Source of the DNA: an uncultured Eubacteriales bacterium
Lineage (GTDB): Bacteria; Bacillota; Clostridia; Christensenellales; Aristaeellaceae
Length of the DNA stretch: 64,000 nt
Reading direction: 5' to 3'
Assembly: GCA_902790175.1 (NCBI GenBank)
Contig: CADAQZ010000013.1
Span: 53,615-117,614, forward strand
The position numbers and the translations under genes were made by a program. The notes beneath the pieces were generated by a model. That model was given only the letters and a program-made list of their open reading frames with translations, searched no databases and had not been told where the DNA came from. Shown here in pieces: positions 3,944 through 64,000 of this stretch; the first letter of the stretch is position 1, and each line of letters begins with the position of its first letter.

Positions 3944-4882
3944 CTACCCATTTCCCGCCAGCCAGTGCGCCAGGGCGGCGTAGTCGCCCCGGACGGGGGA
4001 GAGCCCCGGCAGGGCGGACGCGCCCGACGATGGGACGATCTCGCCGCCCGACTGTCCGAAGACCCGCGCAAGCGGGTCTTTCATATTGCCCCGGATGCGC
4101 GCCCAGGCGTCCGGGTCGTCCCGCGCCAGGAGCCCCGCGGCGTAGCGCAGCGCCCACAGCTGCGCCGAGTCGGCGAAAACCCCGCCCGCATCCGCGCACC
4201 GCTGCCACGCGGCGATGTTGGCCGCGCCCTCGTCGGCGATGCCGTTGAGGTGCATCAGCTCGTGCACGGCCGTGAAGGGGAGAAGCGCCGCGGGCGCGCT
4301 GGCGTCCACGACGGCCTCGCCGGTCGGCGGTGCAAACAGCCCCGACACGCCCCCGGCGCGCATCCACTCCGGGTAACGCGCGGCCTTCACCATGCAGTCC
4401 GGCAGGCCCGCGACCCCAGGCGCGAGGCGCAGGGCCTCGGCACTCTCCGGAAATTCGAGCGGCGCGGCGTTCAGCCGGTCGACGAGCGCGTCGCACAGCC
4501 ACGCGAGCTGATTGGCGTCGGGCTCGGGCGGGAGGTCCGCCGGCGCGAGCATTGCTGGGAGCCACGCGAGCGCCAGCAGCGTCGCAAGCGCCAGCGCCGC
4601 CGCGGCGACGCCGCGCAGCCAGCGCAGGAGGGGCTCCATGCGTCGGCGAAGGAGCGCGCGGAGAACCGCGGAAACCAGCGCCAGCAGCGCCGCGACGCCG
4701 ACGGCAAAGGTTAATGGCTCCGAGACGGGGAAGGGGACGCGCGCCGTCAGCCGGTGCAGCGCCATCGTCAGGGGATGGGAGAGGCGCTCGCGGAGAAAGG
4801 CGGGAAACGCCCGGCAGAGCAGGCAAAACAGGGCAAGGGACGATGCCCAGAGGATCCAGAGGCGCTTTCCCTTCCTCGCCAT
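3944..4882 (-). CDS. DUF3810 family membrane protein with HExxH motif
   Basis: The 312-residue product has three N-terminal hydrophobic helices (about residues 8-25, 55-80 and 95-115), followed by an extracytoplasmic domain. In that domain AVHELMHLNGIADEGAAN carries an HExxH zinc-binding motif plus a downstream Glu, as in the DUF3810 family of predicted membrane metallopeptidases. The start is ATG 4882, preceded by AGGAGGT; an in-frame GTG-type extension to 4918 lacks a ribosome binding site. Substrate and role are unknown; wall or membrane protein turnover is a reasonable guess from the family. Confidence 0.75.
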   Translation of the reverse strand: MARKGKRLWILWASSLALFCLLCRAFPAFLRERLSHPLTMALHRLTARVPFPVSEPLTFAVGVAALLALVSAVLRALLRRRMEPLLRWLRGVAAAALALATLLALAWLPAMLAPADLPPEPDANQLAWLCDALVDRLNAAPLEFPESAEALRLAPGVAGLPDCMVKAARYPEWMRAGGVSGLFAPPTGEAVVDASAPAALLPFTAVHELMHLNGIADEGAANIAAWQRCADAGGVFADSAQLWALRYAAGLLARDDPDAWARIRGNMKDPLARVFGQSGGEIVPSSGASALPGLSPVRGDYAALAHWLAGNG

Positions 4883-52947: not shown

Positions 52948-53072
52948 GGGAACGCCTCGCTTCTCGGTGATGTGAACAAGTATAGCACAAGCGGGGGCGT
53001 CGGGATGTAAAGAGTAGGATAAAAGAAAGGCCCGTTGCCCATTTTATGTCGAATTGAAACCGCGTTTTTATC

Positions 53073-53101
53073 ATGGCAATCGCTGCCATCCGTGCTATAA
53101 T
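53073..53101 (+). promoter_or_regulatory. TATAAT with adjoining palindrome before the NlpC gene
   Basis: TATAAT (53096-53101) is a clear -10 box. The perfect inverted repeat ATGGCA-ATCGC-TGCCAT (53073-53089) covers where the -35 and spacer would be, and no -35 consensus is seen. A regulator site is possible. Confidence 0.4.
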
Positions 53102-53155
53102 GAGGTTGGAGCGATGGCTGTGCCCGTCGCCCCGCAAGCCGAAGGAGCGATGGAT

Positions 53156-53602
53156 ATGAAACTCAGAAGAGCGATCGCGCTGGCCCTGCTGCTGGCGCTG
53201 GCCCTCGCGACGCCCGCCATGGCCTCGCACGAGCAGGTCAAGAAGGTGCTCAGCGTGGCGAAGGGCGAGTTGGGCGCGCCCTACGCGCTCCGTTCGGACG
53301 CTCCCAACAGCTTCAACTGCCTGTCCTTCGTCGCGTATTGCTTCAACCAGGTCGAGTCCGGGACGATCTCCTCGGAGGGCGTCGCCACCGACTACCAGAA
53401 GATCTCGTCGCTGCGCAAGGTGAAGGCCGGGGACGTCGTCTGCTTCACCACCGTCAGCCGCCAGAAGGGCATGCCGCCCTATCACTTCGGCATCTGCATC
53501 GGCAGCGGCTGCTTCGTGCACGCGCTGAGCGGCCACGGCGTCACCGTCAGCCGCCTGAAGGACTACAAAAAGCGCTTCATCGGTGCGATGCGGATATTCT
53601 GA
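53156..53602 (+). CDS. Secreted NlpC/P60 family protein
   Basis: This 148-residue protein has a signal peptide (about 1-22, ending PAMA) and one NlpC/P60 domain, the fold of wall peptidases cutting D-Glu-mDAP bonds. The nucleophile Cys is in SFNCLSFVAYCF, where the family usually reads DCSGFV. The His is in PYHFGICIGSGCFVHAL. The replacement of the Asp-Cys-Ser-Gly by Asn-Cys-Leu-Ser is uncommon but keeps the Cys. There is no wall-binding module. Start ATG 53156 (MKLRR) is preferred over ATG 53150 because of spacing from AAGGAG. Confidence 0.78.
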   Translation: MKLRRAIALALLLALALATPAMASHEQVKKVLSVAKGELGAPYALRSDAPNSFNCLSFVAYCFNQVESGTISSEGVATDYQKISSLRKVKAGDVVCFTTVSRQKGMPPYHFGICIGSGCFVHALSGHGVTVSRLKDYKKRFIGAMRIF

Positions 53603-53619
53603 TTTGTATATGGAGTTTT

Positions 53620-53699
53620 GAAGATCCTTTGCTTCGCTACGGATGACAACTGGAAGCTGATCGTCGGCCGGTCGTCCTGAGCGAAGCAAGGGATCTTTT
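53620..53699. repeat. Long inverted repeat, GATCCTTCGACTTCG family, copy 5
   Basis: The left end is AAGATCCTTTGCTTCGCT and the right end AGCGAAGCAAGGGATCTT. Inner sequence GGATGAC and GTCGTCC pair. It lies between the NlpC gene and the amino-acid ABC genes and could end the NlpC transcript. Confidence 0.75.
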
Positions 53700-53755
53700 C
53701 AGGTATTGTGCGAGGGTCCGGCGCGTCGGTTGCGCCAAGGAGGGAACGAGCAATC

Positions 53756-56035
53756 ATGAAACGAGTCGCACTGGCGCTGCTGGCGCTGCTGATGGCGCTG
53801 GCGGCCTCCGCGGCGGCGGAGGGGGAGATCACCTCCAAGGCCCAGCTGGATCGGCCGGGCGTGCGCATCGGCGTCGGCACGGGAAGCGCCGCCATGCTGA
53901 TGGTGGAGCAGGAGCTGCCGAACGCCGAGCTTGTGTACCTGGAGGCCGGCGAGGGCTTCGAGGCGGTGGCGCTGGGCAAGATTGACGCCTACGTCTACGA
54001 CCGCCGCCAGATGGAGCTGGCGATCGAGAGCGGGCGCAGGGGCGTGCACCTGCTGGACGAGGACATGGAGGGCGTCGTGCCCATCGCCGCGGGCATCTCC
54101 CCGGCATCCAAGATACCGGACCTGGAGCAGAGCGTCAACGCCTTTATCGCCCAGATCAAAGCGGACGGCACGCTGGACGACATGTACCGCCGCTGGGTGA
54201 CGGACGGCGACTTGACGATGCCCGACATCGACATGCCCTCCGATCCCCGGCTGCACCTGGTCGTGGGCACCACCGGCATCGTTCCGCCGTTCAGCTACTA
54301 CGTCGGCGACGCGCTGAGCGGCTACGACATCGAAATGGCCTATCGCTTCGCCGCGTATATAAACGCGGACGTGACGTTCAAGGTGTACGACTACGGCTCC
54401 ATCATCATCGCCGCGGCCACCGGGGACGTGGACCTGATCCTGGCGAACCTGAACGTCACGCCGGAGCGCGCCGAGGTGCTGACCTTCTCGGATCCGTTCT
54501 ACGAGCTGCCGGTGGCCATCATGGTCAAGGGCGATCCCAAGCCCGACGCGGCGTCGGACGGCGGCAAGTCGCTGGATCGGCTGAACGGGGCGCGCATCGG
54601 CATCCAGACGGGCACCAGCTATACCGACACCGTGCTGGAGCGGCTCCCGGACGCGCAGATCAGCTACTTCAACACCTATACCGACATGGTCGCGGCGCTG
54701 GAGACCTATAAGATCGACGCGTTCCCGGGCGACGAGCCGGTGATGAAGATGATGGTCGCCGAGGACGACCGGCTGGAGCTGCTGGAAGAACCCCTGGAGA
54801 GCGTCGACATGGGCTTCGTCCTGCCCAAGAGCGAGACAGGCGAGAAGCTGCAGGGCGAGCTGAACGAATGGATCGCCGCCATGAAGGCGGACGGCAGGAT
54901 GGACGCGCTGTTTGAAAAGTGGGTGGACGGCCCGGAGAGCGGAAAGACCATGCCGGATTACGAGGCGCTGCCCGCGCCGAACGGCACGCTGCGGTTTGCC
55001 ACCGAGGCGGCCTACGCGCCGATGAACTACCTGCGCGACGGAAAGATCGTGGGCCTGGAGGTGGAGATGGCGGCGCTGTTCTGCGAGGCCTACGGCTACG
55101 GCATGACCGTTCAGGCCATGAACTTCGACGGCCTGCTGCCCGCGGTCAAGTCCGGCAAGGCGGATTTTGTGGCGGCGTCCATCGCCATCACCGAGGAGCG
55201 CGCCGAGAGCGTGAACTTCTCCGACCCGTATTTTAACGCCGGCACGGTGTTGGCGGTGCTGAAGGGCGGGGAGGGCGCCGCGGCGACCGAGAAGGCGGCG
55301 GATGAGACGGGCGCCCTGGGCGGCGTCGCGGACAGCTTCCAAAAGACCTTCGTGCGCGAGGGCCGCTGGCAGCTGTTCGCCAGGGGCGTGGTCACCACGC
55401 TGGTCATCACGCTGCTGTCGATCCTGTTCGGCACGCTGCTGGGCTTTGCGGTGTTCATGCTGTGCCGCAACGGCAATCCCATCGCCAACGGCGTCACGCG
55501 CTTTTCGATGTGGCTGGTGCAGGGCATGCCGATGGTGGTGCTTTTGATGATCCTCTACTATATCATCTTCGGCAGCGTGGCAATCAGCGGCATCGCCGTA
55601 GCGGTGGTGGGCTTCACGCTCACGTTCGGCGCGGCGGTGTTCGGGCTTTTGAAGATGGGCGTGGGCGCGGTGGACGGCGGCCAGTACGAGGCCGCGTATG
55701 CGCTGGGCTACTCCAATCGCCGCACGTTCTTCCGCATCATACTGCCCCAGGCGCTGCCGCACGTGTTGTCCGCCTACCGGGGCGAGGTCGTGGGGCTGAT
55801 CAAGGCGACGGCCATCGTGGGCTACATCGCCGTGCAGGACCTGACCAAGATGGGGGATATCGTCAGAAGTCGTACTTATGAAGCGTTTTTCCCTTTGATT
55901 GCAGTAACAGTGATCTACTTCCTTCTGGAGGGTCTCATTGGATTCATGGTCAGCAGGTTCACGATCAACATCAATCCCAGACGCAGGAAGCCTGAGGACA
56001 TCCTGAAGGGGGTGAAGACCGATGATCAGGATTGA
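53756..56035 (+). CDS. Amino-acid ABC binding protein/permease fusion with permuted lobes
   Basis: The 759-residue protein fuses a signal peptide (1-22), four half-domains of SBP_bac_3 type and a polar amino acid permease (~535-740). Residues 26-160 match the second half of such a binding protein (lobe II: LDRPGVRIGVGTGS to DDMYRRWV). Residues 164-258 match the first half (lobe I: LHLVVGTTGIVPPFSYYVG to FSDPFYELPVAIMV). Residues 271-402 are lobe II again (LDRLNGARIGIQTGTS to MDALFEKWV), and 409-503 lobe I again (LRFATEAAYAPMNYLRDG to FSDPYFNAGTVLAVL). The order is II-I-II-I, a circular permutation of a tandem pair. The permease part carries the EAA loop YEAAYALGYSNRRTFFRIIL. It is a GlnP-like importer with its ATPase encoded next. 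Confidence 0.85.
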   Translation: MKRVALALLALLMALAASAAAEGEITSKAQLDRPGVRIGVGTGSAAMLMVEQELPNAELVYLEAGEGFEAVALGKIDAYVYDRRQMELAIESGRRGVHLLDEDMEGVVPIAAGISPASKIPDLEQSVNAFIAQIKADGTLDDMYRRWVTDGDLTMPDIDMPSDPRLHLVVGTTGIVPPFSYYVGDALSGYDIEMAYRFAAYINADVTFKVYDYGSIIIAAATGDVDLILANLNVTPERAEVLTFSDPFYELPVAIMVKGDPKPDAASDGGKSLDRLNGARIGIQTGTSYTDTVLERLPDAQISYFNTYTDMVAALETYKIDAFPGDEPVMKMMVAEDDRLELLEEPLESVDMGFVLPKSETGEKLQGELNEWIAAMKADGRMDALFEKWVDGPESGKTMPDYEALPAPNGTLRFATEAAYAPMNYLRDGKIVGLEVEMAALFCEAYGYGMTVQAMNFDGLLPAVKSGKADFVAASIAITEERAESVNFSDPYFNAGTVLAVLKGGEGAAATEKAADETGALGGVADSFQKTFVREGRWQLFARGVVTTLVITLLSILFGTLLGFAVFMLCRNGNPIANGVTRFSMWLVQGMPMVVLLMILYYIIFGSVAISGIAVAVVGFTLTFGAAVFGLLKMGVGAVDGGQYEAAYALGYSNRRTFFRIILPQALPHVLSAYRGEVVGLIKATAIVGYIAVQDLTKMGDIVRSRTYEAFFPLIAVTVIYFLLEGLIGFMVSRFTININPRRRKPEDILKGVKTDDQD

Positions 56036-57113
56036 ACATCTGAGGAAGGAATACCCCAACGTCACCCCGCTGAAGGACGTGAATGTCGAGATCCGCGACG
56101 GCGACGTGATCTCCGTGATCGGCCCGTCCGGCACCGGCAAGAGCACGCTGCTGCGCTGCATCAACCTGCTGGAAAGGCCCACGTCGGGCAAGATCTGGGT
56201 GGACGATCTGGAGATCACCGATCCGAAGTGCGACATCAACAAAGTCCGGCAGAAGATGGGCATGGTATTCCAGTCGTTCAACCTGTTCGGGCACAGGACG
56301 GTGATCGAGAACATCATGCTCGCGCCGATGGACCTGCTCAGAAAGTCGAAGCAGGAAGCCTATGACACCGGCATGCGGCTTCTCAGGACGGTGGGCCTGG
56401 CGGAAAAGGCGCTGAACTACCCGGACGAGCTGTCGGGCGGACAGAAGCAGCGCATCGCCATTGCGCGCACGCTGGCGATGGACCCGGACGTGATCCTGTT
56501 CGACGAGCCCACCAGCGCGCTGGACCCGACGATGGTCGGCGAGGTGCAGGCGGTCATCCGGGACCTGTCAAAGACCGGCAAGACCATGCTCATCGTCACG
56601 CACGAGATGGCGTTTGCCCGCGCGATCTCAAACCGCGTGTTCTACATGGACGAGGGCGGCGTCTACGAGGACGGCGCGCCTGAGCAGGTGTTCGACCACC
56701 CGCTGCGGGAGAACACGCGCCGGTTTGTGCGGCGGCTGAAGGTGCTGGAGCTGAACATCGAAAGCCGCGACTACGACTTCCTCGGCATGGCGGGGGAGAT
56801 CGACCAGTACTGCAACAAAAACCAAATCGCGCCGAAGCTGGCCAGCCGCATCCATCTCGCGTTCGAGGAGCTGGTGCAGCAGATGCTGGTCCCCGCGCTG
56901 GAATCGCCGCGCATCCAGGCGGTGATCGAGTATTCGGAGGCGGACGAGCGCGCGACGATGACCGTGCGCTACAACGGCGAGCCCCGCGACATCACCGCCG
57001 AGGGCGACGAGCTGTCGCTGACGCTGCTCAGGGGCGTCGCGGCCGACATGCGGTATTCGGCGCTCGACGACGCGGCGTATCCGAACCAGCTCGACCTGAC
57101 GTTCTCCGGCTGA
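56022..57113 (+). CDS. Amino-acid ABC ATPase with GHKL-like C-terminal domain
   Basis: Residues 1-241 form a standard GlnQ/HisP ATPase: Walker A GPSGTGKST, FQSFNLFGHRTV, signature LSGGQKQRIAIART, Walker B VILFDEPTSALDP and VTHEMAFA. A 122-residue extension follows (242-363). It looks like a small GHKL/HATPase fold of RsbW type: an IHLAFEELVQQML helix in place of the N-box, a strand pair with MTVRYNGEPRDIT in place of the G1 box, and a C-terminal DLTF strand. The N-box Asn and the G1 Asp are not conserved, so ATP binding by the extension is doubtful. It may be a regulatory module. The gene overlaps the permease fusion by 14 bp. Confidence 0.88.
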   Translation: MIRIEHLRKEYPNVTPLKDVNVEIRDGDVISVIGPSGTGKSTLLRCINLLERPTSGKIWVDDLEITDPKCDINKVRQKMGMVFQSFNLFGHRTVIENIMLAPMDLLRKSKQEAYDTGMRLLRTVGLAEKALNYPDELSGGQKQRIAIARTLAMDPDVILFDEPTSALDPTMVGEVQAVIRDLSKTGKTMLIVTHEMAFARAISNRVFYMDEGGVYEDGAPEQVFDHPLRENTRRFVRRLKVLELNIESRDYDFLGMAGEIDQYCNKNQIAPKLASRIHLAFEELVQQMLVPALESPRIQAVIEYSEADERATMTVRYNGEPRDITAEGDELSLTLLRGVAADMRYSALDDAAYPNQLDLTFSG

Positions 57114-57126
57114 GACAAAGATGATT

Positions 57127-57155
57127 GTCGGCGGGTTCCACAGGAGCCCGCCGAC
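57127..57155 (+). terminator. Hairpin after the amino-acid ABC operon
   Basis: Arms of 13 bp (GTCGGCGGGTTCC with one G-U pair) enclose ACA, 13 bp after the stop codon. There is no T-run, so it may be a weak terminator or an mRNA 3' end stabiliser. Confidence 0.5.
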
Positions 57156-57186
57156 CCGGAAAACGTTCCGCTTTCCCATTCATGAA

Positions 57187-57224
57187 CAAAAAAGAACGCG
57201 CGTCAGTTTTCGCTGACGCGCGTT
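57187..57224 (-). terminator. Terminator of the tRNA pair
   Basis: On the minus strand AACGCGCGTCAG and its complement enclose a 6-nt loop, followed by a TTCTTTTTTT tract. It directly follows tRNA-Glu. Confidence 0.8.
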
Positions 57225-57226
57225 TC

Positions 57227-57301
57227 TGGTACCGCCACGGGGACTCGAACCCCGGTTTTCGCCGTGAGAGGGCGACGTCTTAACCGCTTGACCATGGCGG
57301 C
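57227..57301 (-). tRNA. tRNA-Glu (anticodon CTC)
   Basis: The 75-nt sequence includes an encoded CCA. The acceptor pair is GCCGCCA/TGGCGGT, the anticodon loop CTCTCAC and the T loop GGTTCGAGTCC. The D arm GGTCAAGCGGTTAAGAC is typical of tRNA-Glu. It is downstream of tRNA-Gln in one transcript. Confidence 0.95.
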
Positions 57302-57306
57302 AAACC

Positions 57307-57380
57307 TGGCTGCCGAACCTGGATTCGAACCAGGACTAAATGAGTCAGAGTCATTCGTGCTACCGTTACACAATTCGGCA
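57307..57380 (-). tRNA. tRNA-Gln (anticodon CTG)
   Basis: The 74-nt sequence includes an encoded CCA. The acceptor pair is TGCCGAA/TTCGGCA, the anticodon loop CTCTGAC, and the T loop GGTTCGAATCC. It is the first of two tRNA genes, 5 bp before tRNA-Glu. Confidence 0.95.
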
Positions 57381-57419
57381 AGGTCGTCCGAACACAATCG
57401 TGCCCGACCGACAAGAGAT

Positions 57420-57448
57420 ATTATACTAAGCCGAGGACAAAAAGTCAA
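57420..57448 (-). promoter_or_regulatory. Promoter of the tRNA pair
   Basis: On the minus strand TTGACT, a 17 bp spacer and TATAAT precede tRNA-Gln by about 40 bp. The following stretch to 57618 has TATAAT at 57549-57554 on the plus strand as a likely -10 for the HPr-like gene, with no clear -35. Confidence 0.75.
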
Positions 57449-57618
57449 GGCGTTTTTCCAATTTCATCTGCTTTTTACGTTGAAAAGCGATCCAAACCGG
57501 CACAAGGAATTAAATGTTGGTTAAGGGGCGGTTTTTGCTTGAAAGTTTTATAATGAGGCGCTATGCTAACATCAGTGCGGGTTTTTGACCCGGATTACAG
57601 CAAGTGAGGAGTCTAGCA

Positions 57619-57849
57619 ATGAAAGCCGTTAACATCAAGCTCAGCCTGGCGGAGAACGTCAAGACGTTCGTCAACATCGCCAACCGCTATCCCTACGATA
57701 TCGACCTGCGCGTGGGCCGTCACGTGGTGGACGGCAAGTCCATCCTGGGCATCTTCAGCCTGGACCTGTCCAAGCCGATCACGCTGGAGGTCTATGCCGA
57801 CCATTGCGACGACCTGATGGAGGAGCTCAAGCCGTTCATCATCGGTTGA
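57619..57849 (+). CDS. HPr-like protein lacking the catalytic histidine
   Basis: The 76-residue protein has the HPr fold pattern. Its regulatory-serine loop VDGKSILGIFSLDL is intact (Ser41, equivalent to HPr Ser46). The region that carries the phosphorylated His15 in HPr (G-x-H-A-R-P) reads AENVKTFVNI, with no His. It therefore cannot act in PTS phosphotransfer but could be a target of HPr kinase, like Crh of Bacillus. Similar His-less paralogues with the same N-terminus are known in Clostridia. ATG 57619 follows AGTGAGGA. It is a single-gene transcript. Confidence 0.85.
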   Translation: MKAVNIKLSLAENVKTFVNIANRYPYDIDLRVGRHVVDGKSILGIFSLDLSKPITLEVYADHCDDLMEELKPFIIG

Positions 57850-57860
57850 TAACGCAGATA

Positions 57861-57898
57861 CGCGAAAGCGCCGTCACGACTGTGACGGCGCTTTCGCG
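57861..57898. terminator. Terminator between the HPr-like gene and ydcF
   Basis: Perfect 17-bp arms (CGCGAAAGCGCCGTCAC) enclose a 4-nt loop, followed by TTTCC. It can serve both converging genes. Confidence 0.7.
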
Positions 57899-57902
57899 TT
57901 TC

Positions 57903-58640
57903 CTACAGCCTCCCATGCAGCCCGTGCAGCGTGATGGAGATTGCCTCGCGCACCATGAAGTGCAAAAGCGTGGGCCCGGTGTAGGTCGCGGCGATGCCGT
58001 GGGCGTTCTTGAACCCCGCCTTCTTCGCCATCCGCAGCGCGCGCCAGATGTGGTAGTTGTTGGTGACGATGCCGACGGCCGCGTCGTCGTCGCCGATGAT
58101 GGCCTTGCAGTTGGCGATGTTCTCGCGCGTGTCGGTGGACCGATCCTCCATGAGGATGCGCGCCGGGTCCACGCCGCGCTTCACCAGCTCGTCGCGGATG
58201 CACTGGGCCTCGCTGATCGGCTCGTTCGCGCCCTGGCCGCCGGAGGCGATGATCTTGGCGTCCGGATGGTCGTCCAGCACGGCCATCACCGCGTTCAGCC
58301 GCCGGGTCAGCGCGGGGCTGGGCCCGTCCTGGTACACGCTGGCCCCCAGCACGATCAGGTAGTCCATGCCCGCGGGCGCGGTGGCGTGCATGCCGCTCAC
58401 GACGAGGCACTCCAGCGCGATCAGCAGCGCCAGCGCCGCCGCCAGCAGCCCCCGCCACGCCCAGCGCAGCCAGTGCGGCAGGCCCGCGCGGGTCAGCAGG
58501 CCCGCCGCGATCAGTGCCGCGCCCACCGCGGGCCAGATCCAGCTGATGCTCAGCCCGAAGCGGGAGTACACGCCGATGAGAATGTAGTAGAGGACGCAGG
58601 CGATGCCCGCCGCGATGTACGCGATGCCGAGCGCGCTCAT
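57903..58640 (-). CDS. YdcF family (DUF218) membrane protein
   Basis: The 245-residue protein has three N-terminal membrane helices (about 5-22, 33-50 and 63-85) and a C-terminal DUF218 domain. That domain starts DYLIVLGASVYQDGPSPAL and includes IIASGGQGANEPISEA and EDRSTDTRENIANCK, typical of YdcF/SanA-like proteins. Members bind SAM or take part in envelope processes, but no reaction is agreed. The late segment VTNNYHIWRALRMAKKAG is the conserved end of the domain. Confidence 0.85.
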   Translation of the reverse strand: MSALGIAYIAAGIACVLYYILIGVYSRFGLSISWIWPAVGAALIAAGLLTRAGLPHWLRWAWRGLLAAALALLIALECLVVSGMHATAPAGMDYLIVLGASVYQDGPSPALTRRLNAVMAVLDDHPDAKIIASGGQGANEPISEAQCIRDELVKRGVDPARILMEDRSTDTRENIANCKAIIGDDDAAVGIVTNNYHIWRALRMAKKAGFKNAHGIAATYTGPTLLHFMVREAISITLHGLHGRL

Positions 58641-58698
58641 GGGATCATTCCTTTCGGATGGGAATGGGGGTATTATACACGGGGAAGGTTAAGAACGC

Positions 58699-58747
58699 AA
58701 AAAGCGGATTGCCGCGCCGGTCCCATCAGGACCGGCGCGGCAATCCG
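58699..58747 (-). terminator. Terminator of the Rrf2 gene
   Basis: Perfect 19-bp arms (CGGATTGCCGCGCCGGTCC) enclose a 5-nt loop. The minus strand continues CTTTTTGC, so it ends the Rrf2 transcript. Confidence 0.82.
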
Positions 58748-58774
58748 TCTGTCGCCTGCGCGAACCGTGCGCGC

Positions 58775-59200
58775 CTACTTCTGCGCTACGGGGATGCGGC
58801 CATCGACCAGGTCCTGCAGCGTGATGCCGTTCAGGTAGTCGCGGATCATACTCTCCAGCGCCGTCCACATCGGCAGCGTCTTGCACTCGTTGCAGCGCTC
58901 GCACGCATTCGGCTTCTGCTCCAGGCAGGCGACGGGGTACATCGAGCCCTCCACCACCTGCAGAACCGCGTGCACCGTGTATTCGCTCGCCGGCTTGGAG
59001 AGCATGTAGCCGCCCTGATAGCCGCGCACGGCGCGCAGCATGCCCGCCTGGCTCAGGTGCAGCGCGATCTGCTCCAGGTACTTCTTGGAGATGTTCTGCC
59101 GCAGCGCGACGTCCTTCAGCGTCACATAGCCCTTCTCCTGGTTCTCCGCGATGTCGATCATCATGCGAAGCGCGTAGCGCCCCTTCGTCGAAATTTTCAC
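58775..59200 (-). CDS. Rrf2 family transcriptional regulator
   Basis: The 141-residue protein has the Rrf2 winged helix (MKISTKGRYALRMMIDIA, KDVALRQNISKKYLEQI and the wing RGYQGGYML). The loop CLEQKPNACERCNEC is long enough and Cys-rich enough for an iron-sulfur cluster or a redox-sensitive site, as in IscR and RsrR; CymR-type members lack these Cys. The start is GTG 59200, seven bases after AGGAGG; no ATG fits. It is divergent from metQ-metN-metI, which suggests control of sulfur amino acid uptake. That link is an inference from position only. Confidence 0.88.
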   Translation of the reverse strand: MKISTKGRYALRMMIDIAENQEKGYVTLKDVALRQNISKKYLEQIALHLSQAGMLRAVRGYQGGYMLSKPASEYTVHAVLQVVEGSMYPVACLEQKPNACERCNECKTLPMWTALESMIRDYLNGITLQDLVDGRIPVAQK

Positions 59201-59257
59201 ACCAATGCCTCCTGTATGGATGGGCAGCGTCCCTCTCGCTGCCATCCTCTTCTTCAA

Positions 59258-59294
59258 CATGTATAATACTAACATGCTTCCTTCATTTATGCAA
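59258..59294 (-). promoter_or_regulatory. Rrf2 promoter with overlapping inverted repeat
   Basis: On the minus strand TTGCAT (59289-59294), a 17 bp spacer and TAGTAT (59266-59271) form the promoter. The inverted repeat CATGT-N9-ACATG (59258-59276) covers the -10 box, the place for autorepression. Confidence 0.55.
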
Positions 59295-59428
59295 GTCACT
59301 TTACATTAAAACGGGAGATGTGAAGGCAAAAGCGTCATAAATGGCGATCTTTGTCTCTATTTTGAGGGCGGGATGTCCGGCGGCCGATTCATTTTTCCGG
59401 GCGCGCATCCATATTAATGGGCACATAT

Positions 59429-59449
59429 GTTATAGGTATTTTCTATAAC
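59429..59449. promoter_or_regulatory. Inverted repeat upstream of metQ
   Basis: GTTATAG-N7-CTATAAC is perfect and ends 20 bp before the metQ -35 box. It could be the Rrf2 operator or another regulator site. No SAM riboswitch core is seen between it and metQ. Confidence 0.45.
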
Positions 59450-59469
59450 AAGGTATCGCATTCGCGTAT

Positions 59470-59498
59470 TGGACAAACCGACGGCGGCGTGGTAGAAT
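59470..59498 (+). promoter_or_regulatory. Promoter of metQ
   Basis: TGGACA (59470-59475), a 17 bp spacer and TAGAAT (59493-59498) lie 32 bp before the metQ start. Confidence 0.6.
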
Positions 59499-59530
59499 GG
59501 CTGCAGTCTCAAAAACAGGAGGTAATTTCC

Positions 59531-60352
59531 ATGACCATTCGCAAGCTCTTCGCCGCCCTGCTGGCGGCCCTGCTGATCCTCTCCTCTGTCGCCGCGCTGG
59601 CCGACGTGACCATCGGCGTGCCGGACGACACCACCAACGAGGCCCGCGCGCTGCAGCTGCTGGCCGACAACGGCATCATCGAGCTGGCGGCCGACGTCGT
59701 CGCCGACGGCATCGAGATCATCGAGATCCAGGCCGACCAGATCGTCAACCAGCTGGCCGACCTCGACTACGCCGTGATCAACGGCAACTACGTGATGGAC
59801 GCCCTGGCCGCGGGCTTCGAGATCAACACCCCGCTGGCGCTGGAGTCCGAGGACGCCTACCTGCCCCGCGCGAACGTCATCGCCGTGAAGGGCGAGAACG
59901 TGGACGCCGACCTGACCCGCGCGCTGGTGGCCGCCGTGCGCAGCCAGAAGGTGGCCGATTACATCACCGAGACCTACGGCGGCGGCGCGATCTCCGTGGT
60001 GGACGAGCCCACCGACGGCTACGACCCCGACGTGGACTACGACGCGCTGGCGGGCCAGACCATCGTCATCGCCGCCACGCCCACGCCCCACGCGCAGATC
60101 CTGGAGGTCGTGAAGGAGATCCTGGCCGAGAAGGACATCACGCTGGACATCGAGGTGTTCACCGGCTACACCGAGGAGAACCCCGCCGTGGACGCGGGCG
60201 ACGCCTACGCCAACTACTTCCAGCATCAGCCCTACCTGGATTCCTACGTGGAGGAGACCGGCGGCGACGTGGTGAGCGTGACCACCGTGCACACCGAGCC
60301 CATGGGCCTCTACGGCGGCAAGCAGGCGGACCTGAGCGCGCTGGGAAAGTAA
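59531..60352 (+). CDS. metQ: Methionine-binding protein MetQ with swapped lobes
   Basis: This 273-residue secreted protein binds methionine for the MetNI importer. After a signal peptide (1-24, VAALA site, no lipobox) it begins VTIGVPDDTTNEARALQLL, which in ordinary MetQ is mid-protein (the VAVPNDPTNxGRxLLLL segment). It continues through LDYAVINGNYVMDA and PRANVIAVKGENV to the region that is normally the C-terminus. After a linker (YDPDVDYDALAG) comes the normal N-terminal half: IVIAATPTPHAQILEVVKE, DAYANYFQHQPYLDSYV and VHTEPMGLYGGKQADL. Both halves look complete, so this is a circular permutation with the breakpoint at the lobe crossover. ATG 59531 follows AGGAGGT. metN and metI follow. 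Confidence 0.9.
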   Translation: MTIRKLFAALLAALLILSSVAALADVTIGVPDDTTNEARALQLLADNGIIELAADVVADGIEIIEIQADQIVNQLADLDYAVINGNYVMDALAAGFEINTPLALESEDAYLPRANVIAVKGENVDADLTRALVAAVRSQKVADYITETYGGGAISVVDEPTDGYDPDVDYDALAGQTIVIAATPTPHAQILEVVKEILAEKDITLDIEVFTGYTEENPAVDAGDAYANYFQHQPYLDSYVEETGGDVVSVTTVHTEPMGLYGGKQADLSALGK

Positions 60353-60355
60353 GCC

Positions 60356-60431
60356 TTGCAAGAAAGGCCGGATACAAGTATAATAGAATCCGAACGGAAA
60401 CGCGGACACGCCGGTACTTCCGGTGTGTCCG
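60356..60431 (+). promoter_or_regulatory. Internal promoter and leader hairpin before metN
   Basis: TTGCAA (60356-60361), a 17 bp spacer and TATAAT (60379-60384) give metN-metI their own promoter just after metQ. A hairpin CGGACACGCCGG / CCGGTGTGTCCG (60403-60431) follows at the 5' end of that transcript, and may also reduce read-through from metQ. Confidence 0.6.
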
Positions 60432-60459
60432 TTATCATACGACGGAGGCGGACGGGCCC

Positions 60460-61490
<1,031 letters not shown>

Positions 61491-61494
<4 letters not shown>

Positions 61495-62201
61495 GCCAGT
61501 TCGCGAAGGCGTTTGAGCCGGACAAGCTGCAGGAGGCGTGGCACGTCTTTTTGACGGAGTTCCCGCAGGGCCTGTGGGAGACCGTGTACGTGACGCTCCT
61601 GGCGACGCTGTTCGCCATCCTCCTCGGCCTGCCGCTGGGCATATTGCTGGTGACCGGCGACGAGAAGGGCATCCGCCCGCTGCCGAAGCCGCTGATGAAG
61701 GTGGTGAACGTGATCATCAACTTCCTGCGCTCGGTGCCGTTTTTGATCCTGATGGTCATGGTCATCCCGCTGACGCGCGCCATCGTGGGCACGTCCATCG
61801 GCTCGGTGGCCTCCATCGTGCCGCTGGTGGTGGCCGCGTTCCCGTTCGTGGCGCGACTGGTGGAGTCGTCGCTGAGGGAGCTGGACCCGAACATCATCGA
61901 GATGGCGCAGAGCATGGGCTCCTCCACCGCGCAGATCATCTTCCGCGTGATGCTGCCGGAGAGCGTGCCCTCGCTGGTGACGAACTTCACGCTGGCGATC
62001 ACCACGATCCTGGGCTACACCGCCATGTCCGGCGCGATGGGCGGCGGCGGCCTGGGCAAGATCGCCATCAACTACGGCTACTCCCGCTACAAGTACGCCG
62101 TGCTCTACCTCGCCGTGATCGTGCTGGTGCTGCTGGTGCAGGTGTTCCAGAGCGTCGGCACGCGCCTGGCCGCGCGCCTGGACAAGAGGATCAAGAAATA
62201 G
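61491..62201 (+). CDS. metI: Methionine ABC transporter permease MetI
   Basis: The 236-residue permease has five predicted helices. The EAA loop lies in LRELDPNIIEMAQSMGSSTA, and GYTAMSGAMGGGGLGKIAINY is the conserved late segment of MetI. It starts with an ATGA overlap with metN, so the two are translationally coupled. It completes a metQ-metN-metI methionine importer. Confidence 0.95.
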
Positions 62202-62292
62202 AGTTGAGAGTGCCATTTTGAACCAAACGCCCTCTTCTTCCGTCCAACCTGTAGCGTGGCAAACGCCACAATATTGCGGGAGGTACACAGAC

Positions 62293-62880
62293 ATGAAGCG
62301 GATCATCGCGATCGCGCTGGCGCTGCTGTTGCTCGGCTGCGCGGCGCTGGGAGAGGACGTGCAGCCCTTCGCGCTGGAGAACGGCATCGCCTGGGGCATG
62401 AGCCCGAGCGAGGTGATGGCCATCGAGGGAGACGACATCGCGGGCTACCAGTCCATCGGCAAGGGCATGCTGCTGGCCGTGGACGACACGGCGTTCAGGG
62501 GTCGCGAGGCCGGCGCGGGCTACGTGTTCGTGAACGACGCGCTGGCGATGGCGCTCTACGCGCTGGACGCCGAGGACGCAAACCCCGAGGCGCTGATCGC
62601 GGAGATGGACGCCGCCTACGGCGAGCACCGGGACGACCGCGGCAGCGCGTACTTCAACGCCACGAGCCACCTGACCGGGATCCTGTACACCGTGATGCCC
62701 GAGATCAAGGGCGTCGGCGCGCTGTGGGTGCTGCCGGACGGCACGGAGGCGATGGTGCTGACGGACGTGGGCTACGGCTACGAGGCGGACGACGTGCTGG
62801 TGGCGTTCATCGACCACGCGGGCCTCTACGCCAGGACGGACGCCTCCCTCGGCGAGCCCGCCCCGGCGCTGGAGCCGTAA
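62293..62880 (+). CDS. Small predicted lipoprotein of unknown function
   Basis: The 195-residue product starts MKRIIAIALALLLLGCAALG. The LLGC at 13-16 is a proper lipobox, the only one among the secreted proteins of the window, so it should be lipid-anchored. The rest is acidic and shows patterns such as GIAWGMSPSEVMAIEGD and YVFVNDALAMALYALD, which resemble small secreted Clostridia proteins with a repeated beta-alpha unit. I do not recognise a named family. ATG 62293 follows GGGAGG. It is about 90 bp after metI; a link to methionine uptake is possible but unproven. Confidence 0.65.
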   Translation: MKRIIAIALALLLLGCAALGEDVQPFALENGIAWGMSPSEVMAIEGDDIAGYQSIGKGMLLAVDDTAFRGREAGAGYVFVNDALAMALYALDAEDANPEALIAEMDAAYGEHRDDRGSAYFNATSHLTGILYTVMPEIKGVGALWVLPDGTEAMVLTDVGYGYEADDVLVAFIDHAGLYARTDASLGEPAPALEP

Positions 62881-62891
62881 AACGAAGGGGA

Positions 62892-62928
62892 GAAGGGCCG
62901 CGGATTGCGCTGCAATCCGCGGCCCTTC
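62892..62928. terminator. Terminator between the lipoprotein and phosphomutase-like genes
   Basis: Perfect 17-bp arms (GAAGGGCCGCGGATTGC) enclose GCT, at the meeting point of two converging genes. Only short T-runs flank it. Confidence 0.65.
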
Positions 62929-64000
62929 TATTTCTCTCCAGCCAGCCTTTTCAGTTCCCGCTCGCAGAAGTCGCACAGCTCGCGGGCGGTTTCGTCGTTG
63001 GCGGCCTCGGCCACCACGAGGAAGCCCGCGCGGCGCTCGTCGGGGCAGATCCAGGCCCAGCCGCCCGGGCGGCGCAGGCGCATGCCGCCGCCCAACTCCA
63101 CGTCGCGCTCCCGCTGCGCGAGCGTGCGGATCACCCGCCCGGCCTGCGACAGCGGCACCGACACGCTGCGGCTGCGGCGGGACACGGCGGGCATGCCGCG
63201 CCGCCAGTCGGCCAGCGTCAGCTTCTTCGACGCGAGCGCGCCGAGCGCCGCCAGCGCCGCGGCGATGCCGTCGCACTGCAGCGCGAATTGCAGCGGATGG
63301 TGCTCGGCCAGCGTGCTCAGCCACAGCGCGCGCTCGCCGCCGGCGAACTCCACCCGCGCGCCGCGCTCCTGCGCCAGCGCCTGCACGGCCCGCGTGGCCT
63401 CCGCCGGCAGAAGCAGCGCGTCCTCGCCCTTCTCCAGCGCCGTCCACGCCCGCAGCAGCTGCCCCTCGCCCTCGGTCAGCGCGCCCTGCTCGTCGCAGAG
63501 GGAACAGCCCTCGCCGCCGTCGTCCAGCGCGACGCCGATCTCCCCGGGCGCGAGCGCGGGGTCGTTCGCGGCGGCCGTCCGAACGCGCAGCCCCGCGCGC
63601 TCGAACGCGCGCTCCGCCAGCCGGGACAGCAGGCCGTCCGCGGCCCACAGCGCCACCGGCGGCGCGTCCGCGGGGTCGGCGTCGAACAGCGCGGCGGCCC
63701 ACGCCGCGTAGGCGGCGTCCACGGGCCCGGCGGGGGAGAGCGACGGCGTCTGCCCGGAGAACGGCGCGGCGAAGTCCTGCCGGGCGTAGCGGGCGGTCAC
63801 GGCGCGCTGCTGGCGGCTCGTCAGGCGCGCTCCACCGGGGCTCAGCGGGATCAGCCCGTCGCCGGTCACCAGCGCCGCCCAGGGGTTTCCCAGCGCCCTC
63901 TGGGCGCAGCGCAGCGCGGGCAGCGCGCACTCGCCCGCGTCCAGCACCGGCACGCCCTGTGCCAGCGCGCCCGCCGCCGCGGCGTGCCACAGCGCGTGGG
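62928..64000 (-). CDS. Phosphohexomutase-like domain protein, degenerate (5' partial)
   Basis: The frame is open to the window edge, so the N-terminal part is missing; at least 357 residues are present. The order of segments follows the alpha-D-phosphohexomutase fold: ALWHAAAAGALAQGVPVLDAG near the edge resembles the start of domain I, and ALVTGDGLIPLSPGG the active-site loop region. Catalytic motifs are lost: the usual TASHNP is replaced around TGDG, and the metal-binding DGDGDR is replaced by LDDGGEGCSLCDEQG. The C-terminal domain keeps PGGWAWICPDERRAGF in place of the sugar-phosphate loop. It may be the C-terminal half of a sugar nucleotidyltransferase/phosphomutase fusion, acting as a non-catalytic module. 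The assignment rests on pattern reading only. Confidence 0.55.
   Translation of the reverse strand, partial: HALWHAAAAGALAQGVPVLDAGECALPALRCAQRALGNPWAALVTGDGLIPLSPGGARLTSRQQRAVTARYARQDFAAPFSGQTPSLSPAGPVDAAYAAWAAALFDADPADAPPVALWAADGLLSRLAERAFERAGLRVRTAAANDPALAPGEIGVALDDGGEGCSLCDEQGALTEGEGQLLRAWTALEKGEDALLLPAEATRAVQALAQERGARVEFAGGERALWLSTLAEHHPLQFALQCDGIAAALAALGALASKKLTLADWRRGMPAVSRRSRSVSVPLSQAGRVIRTLAQRERDVELGGGMRLRRPGGWAWICPDERRAGFLVVAEAANDETARELCDFCERELKRLAGEK

Follow-up and report, generated by a model that had tools for sequence, protein, structure and literature searches.

A naturally circularly permuted relative of the binding protein MetQ in an uncultured Clostridia bacterium and other bacteria

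Binding proteins are thought to be hinged two-lobed traps whose lobes are joined by two or three chain crossovers, and in the type II topology the ordinary fold has two covalent crossovers between the lobes. A change of topology between binding-protein types, a 'domain dislocation' amounting to an ancient change of fold type, was reportedly described by Fukami-Kobayashi in 1999. The natural permutation of a binding protein has a precedent in TpMglB-2, for which tethering is suggested as the cause of the permutation (PMC4990184). Another study (PMC9815098) is concerned with constructed permuted halves. As for MetQ, no paper on a permuted form was found among the results listed from the open literature searched, most subscription papers lying outside it; this agrees with the preliminary description of the present locus, which knew of no account of a natural permuted MetQ.

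In this study, we analyzed a 64,000-nucleotide stretch of DNA (hereafter the window) that carries a metQ-type gene with its two halves in reversed order. Judging from the sequence, this gene very probably encodes a functional circular permutant of MetQ that serves the adjacent MetNI, with its ligand binding and fold being predicted. We also found that the permuted protein belongs to a large family in which the permutation has likely arisen at least twice.

Anatomy of the permuted metQ and its neighbors

The metQ reading frame is single and open, starting from an ATG at 59531 within a longer frame that opens at 59417 and closing with a stop codon that ends at 60352 (Table 1). The Pfam family PF03180 matches the product twice and in swapped order: profile positions 97–234 come first (69.2 bits, E 3.1e-19) and positions 1–96 second (93.6 bits, E 1.2e-26), both above the cut-off. 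Over its full length, the protein reaches 160.9 bits (cut-off 27), which places it in the family, while the ordinary collinear order (PF03180 1–236) was not obtained. Because positions 97–234 lie ahead of 1–96, the window protein is a permuted relative and not an ordinary member of MetQ/NlpA. Searches of the PDB with phmmer aligned residues 175–269 to residues 10–104 of the 4ib2 chain (i-Evalue 7.4e-21) and residues 28–154 to residues 112–249 of the same chain (i-Evalue 7.7e-17). No solved permuted MetQ is among the 22 PDB chains listed, in each of which the best stretch lies at its ordinary-order place. A misreading of the ordinary order is thus ruled out by the swapped Pfam pieces together with the swapped PDB alignments. 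The cut separates ..SLDEL, with which the N-terminal half of ordinary MetQ ends, from the strand IAVPND, taken here to be the first lobe crossover.

The preliminary description had proposed swapped halves, a short linker between the old termini, and one frame with a normal start and metN–metI downstream. The first proposal is borne out by the order of the Pfam pieces and by the PDB-chain alignments, the second by profile, pairwise and tree evidence, and the third by the ATG, the AGGAGG and the two downstream genes; aligning the halves separately to PF03180, as it had suggested, excluded the normal lobe order and gave the swapped one. Its statement that each half is complete needs a small correction, as an in-frame gap of 27 nt has left the window copy without nine residues that are kept by the four close relatives aligned. 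In an alignment of 60 permuted proteins (A1, comprising the window protein and 59 from the 78 same-order loci described below), three columns absent from the window protein (G, A and T) are nearly invariant in the other rows. The best NCBIfam score of the window MetQ is 70 bits; the five other permuted proteins scanned, none of which comes from the genus of the window, reach 138 to 164. The window copy is a slightly shortened allele of a conserved permuted MetQ, and the nine-residue gap and the weak NCBIfam score suggest that this allele or its group may be weaker.

Table 1. Coordinates of features in the window and, where a locus is named, in related loci
Feature	Position	Strand	Basis or remark
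Permuted metQ, 273 aa + stop	59531..60352	+	Pfam and PDB-chain alignments
AGGAGG, likely ribosome binding site	59517..59522	+	8 bases 5' of the ATG, read directly
Signal peptide, residues 1–24, without lipobox cysteine	59531..59602	+	Cleavage between ..SSVAALA and D, by eye
Former C-terminal half, residues 26–153	59606..59989	+	Half-profile boundaries
22-residue linker between the former C and N termini, residues 154–175, ISVVDEPTDGYDPDVDYDALAG	59990..60055	+	Half-profile boundaries
Former N-terminal half, residues 176–271	60056..60343	+	Half-profile boundaries
Junction of the 27-nt in-frame gap relative to L032, L033, L034 and L037	59688..59689	+	Alignment
metN, ABC ATPase with C-terminal NIL domain	60460..61494	+	ABC_tran 3.1e-39, NIL 1.5e-15
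metI, permease	61491..62201	+	BPD_transp_1 5.1e-20
Rrf2-family regulator gene, divergent from metQ	58775..59299	-	Rrf2 7.3e-37
Permuted metQ of another MetQ subfamily, longer linker	L132:2253-3398	-	Tree
Twice-permuted metQ	L108:321-1190 and L110:4890-5759		Cut inside the first half, main-clade linker
T-box leaders	L100, L078, L081, L084, L104, L089, about 4440-4830		Rfam search

The window locus has the gene set of a MetQ-type operon, namely metN with a NIL domain and metI; the best NCBIfam matches of the two products are ABC_MetN (4.4e-105) and PRK10782 MetI (3.6e-57), both under the cut-off. The divergent Rrf2-family gene is a possible local regulator; at same-genus loci, L033 and L037 among them, homologues are found on the opposite strand, 5' of the permuted metQ. 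The product of the window's Rrf2-family gene has a cysteine cluster, and homologues occur near the permuted metQ in many same-genus loci. Elsewhere in the window, positions 53708–56035 (+) hold a 775-aa ORF that joins three SBP_bac_3 stretches to a permease domain, followed by an ORF at 56022–57113 that reads by eye as an ABC ATPase.

Distribution and number of origins

Permuted metQ was found, from the coordinates of the two profile pieces, in 21 of 27 same-genus genomes, one of which (G024) also has an ordinary metQ; four genomes have ordinary metQ only, and two have none. Elsewhere in the family, three genomes (G029, G033 and G035) carry two permuted copies each. A related-locus search reported 536 stretches, and the counts given here cover the 80 that were examined; the order seen in the window occurred in 78 of the 80, and the other two have a different permutation. 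The records with permuted metQ include Faecalibacterium prausnitzii and other isolates, and the permuted order is present in NZ_CP094467.1 (L096), which is titled a complete Faecalibacterium chromosome. An ordinary metQ that was cut and wrongly rejoined in assembly or binning might be suspected in a genome that consists of 72 contigs and is 87.8% complete. However, the presence of the order in most same-genus genomes, in nearly all examined loci and in isolates including NZ_CP094467.1, along with the conservation of the linker, leaves this reading a negligible probability, and we regard it as refuted by recurrence across unrelated assemblies, which the search of relatives called for in the preliminary description brought out.

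A survey of the class covered 391 evenly drawn genomes with up to six candidates scored per genome, and its counts are among the matches listed. On this basis, 164 genomes match A1 at E <= 1e-30. Eighteen of the 391, including that of the window and spanning 10 family codes, have a single full-length match (E <= 7.5e-118), and in each of them the permuted protein is the only A1 match at E <= 1e-30. A nineteenth full-length match (G336) is weaker (5.6e-51), and the remaining matches listed cover only part of the alignment, which is what ordinary proteins should give. At E <= 1e-60, matches were obtained in 3 of 149 genomes from the class of a Slackia genome (G447, itself one of the three) and in 3 of 398 genomes from the phylum, where G000 and G060 were already among those of the class survey. 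The permuted MetQ is therefore a large family that includes Faecalibacterium, and not an accident: the preliminary description was correct that the permutation is real, but the window protein is not its only bearer. A MAG titled Neisseriaceae (L111) contains a Slackia-type permuted metQ with metN–metI upstream, which may be read as a transfer or as a binning error.

The cut lies at the same place in all same-order permuted groups, while their linkers differ. The linker of the main clade is mostly 21–22 residues long (SVVDNPTDGYDxxVDYDALxGT), with 25 to 31 in a few rows; that of the Slackia group has 17–19 residues (..IPQATGDDT), that of Gemmiger 17, and that of L132 41, about 11 of which are the unmatched start of the second half. 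In a tree of the re-ordered halves, the main Clostridia clade has a support of 100/100, and its SH-aLRT value in a 168-row tree is 98. The Slackia group stands apart together with the Neisseriaceae-labelled MAG, with the ordinary L134 beside it or in an unresolved fork in the two trees. The Gemmiger proteins join the ordinary L004/L006 (98/84 and 99/95 in the two trees), and L132 is nearest to the ordinary L178/L179/L011. Gene order varies as well. The main clade has metQ followed by metN–metI, and metN is downstream of permuted metQ in 71 of 84 loci (66 by an automated rule and five with an overlapping open frame). In nine loci, which come from Slackia, two further genomes of the Slackia class, Gemmiger and L111, metN–metI lies upstream; metN was not found at one locus (L061), and three have no room for it. 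Of 68 rows of ordinary loci, 50 have metI or metN upstream, eight have them downstream only, one has them on both sides, and nine are undetermined.

A single permutation could lie behind all permuted MetQs if the separate positions in the trees were errors or reflected later replacement of the linker. The common cut site would fit this, as would an AU test that did not reject one clade of the main, Slackia and Gemmiger proteins (p 0.365). We nevertheless consider a single origin rather unlikely, given that the linkers differ in sequence and length (mostly 21–22, 17–19, 17 and about 30–41 residues), the operon orders differ, Gemmiger groups with ordinary proteins and an ordinary protein falls in or beside the Slackia group. 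The AU test likewise gave p 0.021 for one clade including L132 and p 0.0435 for Slackia and Gemmiger alone, although these groups were named after inspection of the trees and involve long branches. Two origins of the permutation are likely, and three or four are plausible; the one to three further permutations at the main-clade cut (the Slackia group, Gemmiger and L132) are probably independent.

The two loci with a different permutation, L108 and L110, come from two Clostridia MAGs named after different runs, and their proteins are 99% identical. Behind a signal peptide and lipobox, the chain has the latter part of the N-terminal half, then the complete C-terminal half, the main-clade linker and, at the end, the opening part of the N-terminal half. 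The trees place these proteins within the main clade or at its base. In L108, metN and metI follow metQ, and the contig of L110 ends 22 bases past the last sense codon. Given the type II topology, a cut within the first half would make both crossovers covalent again. Whether several independent permutations occurred at one crossover, with selection for a one-strand hinge, and were followed in L108/L110 by a re-permutation that restored the crossovers is, in our estimate, evenly balanced. Upstream of metQ in L108 (17–127) and in the matching stretch of L110, a small Met/Cys-rich ORF MRNLRCAFFGMDMAEMCMCNMCMVSHTNFSDVLSAR is seen by eye, and after it a hairpin and T run that resemble a terminator; methionine or cysteine may act there through leader-peptide attenuation.

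The permutant would have arisen from a tandem duplication of metQ, an in-frame fusion and the loss of the outer halves, and duplication, fusion and trimming seem the most economical route. The junctions of L108/L110, with both the ordinary N-to-C and the permuted C-linker-N connections, fit different cuts of a tandem fusion. In addition, the Slackia and L132 linkers start like an ordinary C-terminus (VVPVF, YFPAF) and continue like an ordinary mature N-terminus by eye, the pattern that an in-frame tandem fusion would leave. None of the 196 MetQ-type ORFs classified (duplicates included), however, is an intact N-C-N-C fusion, and thus we infer this route from the junctions and linkers. The same proposal in the preliminary description is accordingly favored by the junctions and lacks its fused duplicate among these ORFs. 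One genome (G180:C1:1318347-1320497) has three adjacent metQ matches on one strand, and the one that was fully read (L172) has the ordinary order; a permutant could arise from this kind of array. Long ordinary-order MetQ ORFs of 553–580 aa were also seen (L133, L193 and L194), and by eye the N-terminal part of L133 resembles an additional binding protein of the amino-acid type fused ahead of MetQ.

Predicted fold, ligand binding and regulation

In the permutant, the chain begins at the putative first crossover between the lobes of ordinary MetQ, continues through the former C-terminal half and the linker of about 22 residues that connects the former termini, and ends with the former N-terminal half. 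It would still fold into the usual two-lobed shape, hold methionine between the lobes, close them and dock on MetNI. According to the type II topology, one of the two covalent crossovers would be opened; the hinge would be left with a single covalent strand, and the new termini, including the export or anchor end, would lie at the hinge.

An AlphaFold2 model of the window MetQ built from 60 sequences has a pLDDT of 89.1 and a pTM of 0.81, with the signal peptide predicted as a helix at residues 3–22 (pLDDT <50 at 18–22). Foldseek returned no MetQ among the best 50 of 518 chains at E <= 0.001 for this model; these best 50 were HisG and other two-lobed proteins, with a query TM of at most 0.46 and a target TM of at most 0.53. 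This result is expected of a sequential aligner given a permutant, yet it is no positive structural proof. For L110, whose chain keeps about 190 residues in the ordinary MetQ order, the model has a pLDDT of 83.9 and a pTM of 0.78 (residues 1–27 and 280–284 below 50), and Foldseek placed MetQ-type chains at ranks 1–31 (E 5.9e-26 to 5.3e-15). The contrast between the two models, which is not a superposition, fits permutation.

In N. meningitidis MetQ, methionine is contacted by R156, N213 and N238 from one domain and by Y81, F98, H100 and Y103 from the other, according to PMC6739813. The candidate methionine contacts R39, N84, N86, N115, Y213, F230, H232 and Y235 of the window protein are invariant in all 60 proteins of A1. 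Y213, F230, H232 and Y235 were matched to Y81, F98, H100 and Y103 by identical spacing, and N115 corresponds by alignments to E. coli N229, which PMC6739813 equates with N. meningitidis N238. R39 would correspond to R156, and N84 or N86 to N213.

A search of window positions 53000–64000 detected neither a riboswitch such as the S-box nor a T-box at the gathering score. The lack of a detected methionine regulatory RNA in the window might suggest that the permuted clade is only MetQ-like and binds a different ligand, such as another amino acid or a sulfur compound. In Faecalibacterium, however, all six loci searched, out of 18 that carry this name, have a T-box 5' of the permuted metQ, its end lying 83 to 125 bases from the assigned metQ start; one is above the gathering score, and five are below it (E 1.3e-18 to 3.2e-13). 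The specifier, at the position that we take to be the usual one in T-boxes, is AUG in both alignments shown (two of the six loci). At the gathering score, a T-box adjoins metQ in one of 16 loci other than the window (L100). Given the Met-type T-box in the Faecalibacterium alignments read, the invariant candidate ligand positions and the adjoining MetN with a NIL domain, a different ligand is improbable.

Selection on the permuted metQ is purifying: in comparisons of the window gene with five relatives, dN/dS ranges from 0.11 to 0.54, the highest value being that against L035, for which the former C-terminal half gives 0.74. In the linker region, residues 157–176 are identical in three of the pairs and have one difference in two, with dS there being 0.16 to 0.50. 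The lipobox cysteine is absent from the window MetQ; a simple lipobox pattern was not found in 27 of 30 window-group proteins and was found in 47 of 51 others, the four misses including L069 (a truncated row) and L098 (a probable lipobox that the pattern missed). The genome of the window has Lgt and LspA. Since the ordinary metQ of the same genus (L005 and L007–L009) is likewise without a lipobox, its absence looks like a lineage trait. Tethering as a general cause of the permutation is unsupported, as the window group is without a lipobox in both its permuted and its ordinary metQ.

The 27-nt gap and the lipobox missing from most of the window group, despite Lgt and LspA in the genome of the window, might also indicate a decaying or non-transporting relic retained by chance. 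We judge this to be very improbable, slightly more so than a change of ligand, because selection is purifying, the candidate ligand positions are invariant, the operon is intact and the lipobox is also missing from the ordinary metQ of the genus. Moreover, no second PF03180 gene was found in the examined part of the source genome. A functional MetQ permutant is thus our preferred reading.

Comparison with known binding proteins

A natural, conserved MetQ in which one crossover is apparently opened would offer a direct test of the number of covalent hinge strands that import needs and a natural test of whether the place of the anchor matters. The protein occurs in gut bacteria such as Faecalibacterium, and a set for comparison is at hand in its ordinary, permuted and twice-permuted relatives and their operons. 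Such proteins may be under-recognized, since profiles split the permuted MetQ into halves and the sequential structure search used here had no MetQ among its best 50 chains.

The window protein resembles MetQ/NlpA proteins (E. coli and N. meningitidis MetQ, Tp32 and 4ib2) in the sequences of both halves, the candidate ligand positions and the operon with metN–metI, whereas it differs from the ordinary members in its reversed halves, its new linker, its cut at the first crossover and its lack of a lipobox. The 'domain dislocation' is also a change of topology in binding proteins, but the permuted MetQ keeps a plain sequence relation to its unpermuted family. TpMglB-2 (Tp0684, 'Type Ic') of Treponema pallidum is likewise a naturally permuted binding protein of an ABC importer; according to PMC4990184, it is a glucose-binding Type I protein whose final 70–100 residues could not be aligned collinearly and to which a fourth crossover is added, and its relatives occur in treponemes and in Gram-positive species, of which many live as commensals in the mammalian gut. 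By contrast, the permuted MetQ belongs to PF03180, is halved at a crossover and apparently has more than one origin. At E <= 0.1, Pfam matched the window MetQ to PF03180 above the cut-off and otherwise only to DUF1833, under the cut-off; as no MglB-type match is present, the permuted MetQ is an analogue and not a member of 'Type Ic'. Natural permutation is thus known for another binding protein, and the permuted MetQ itself is a new variant.
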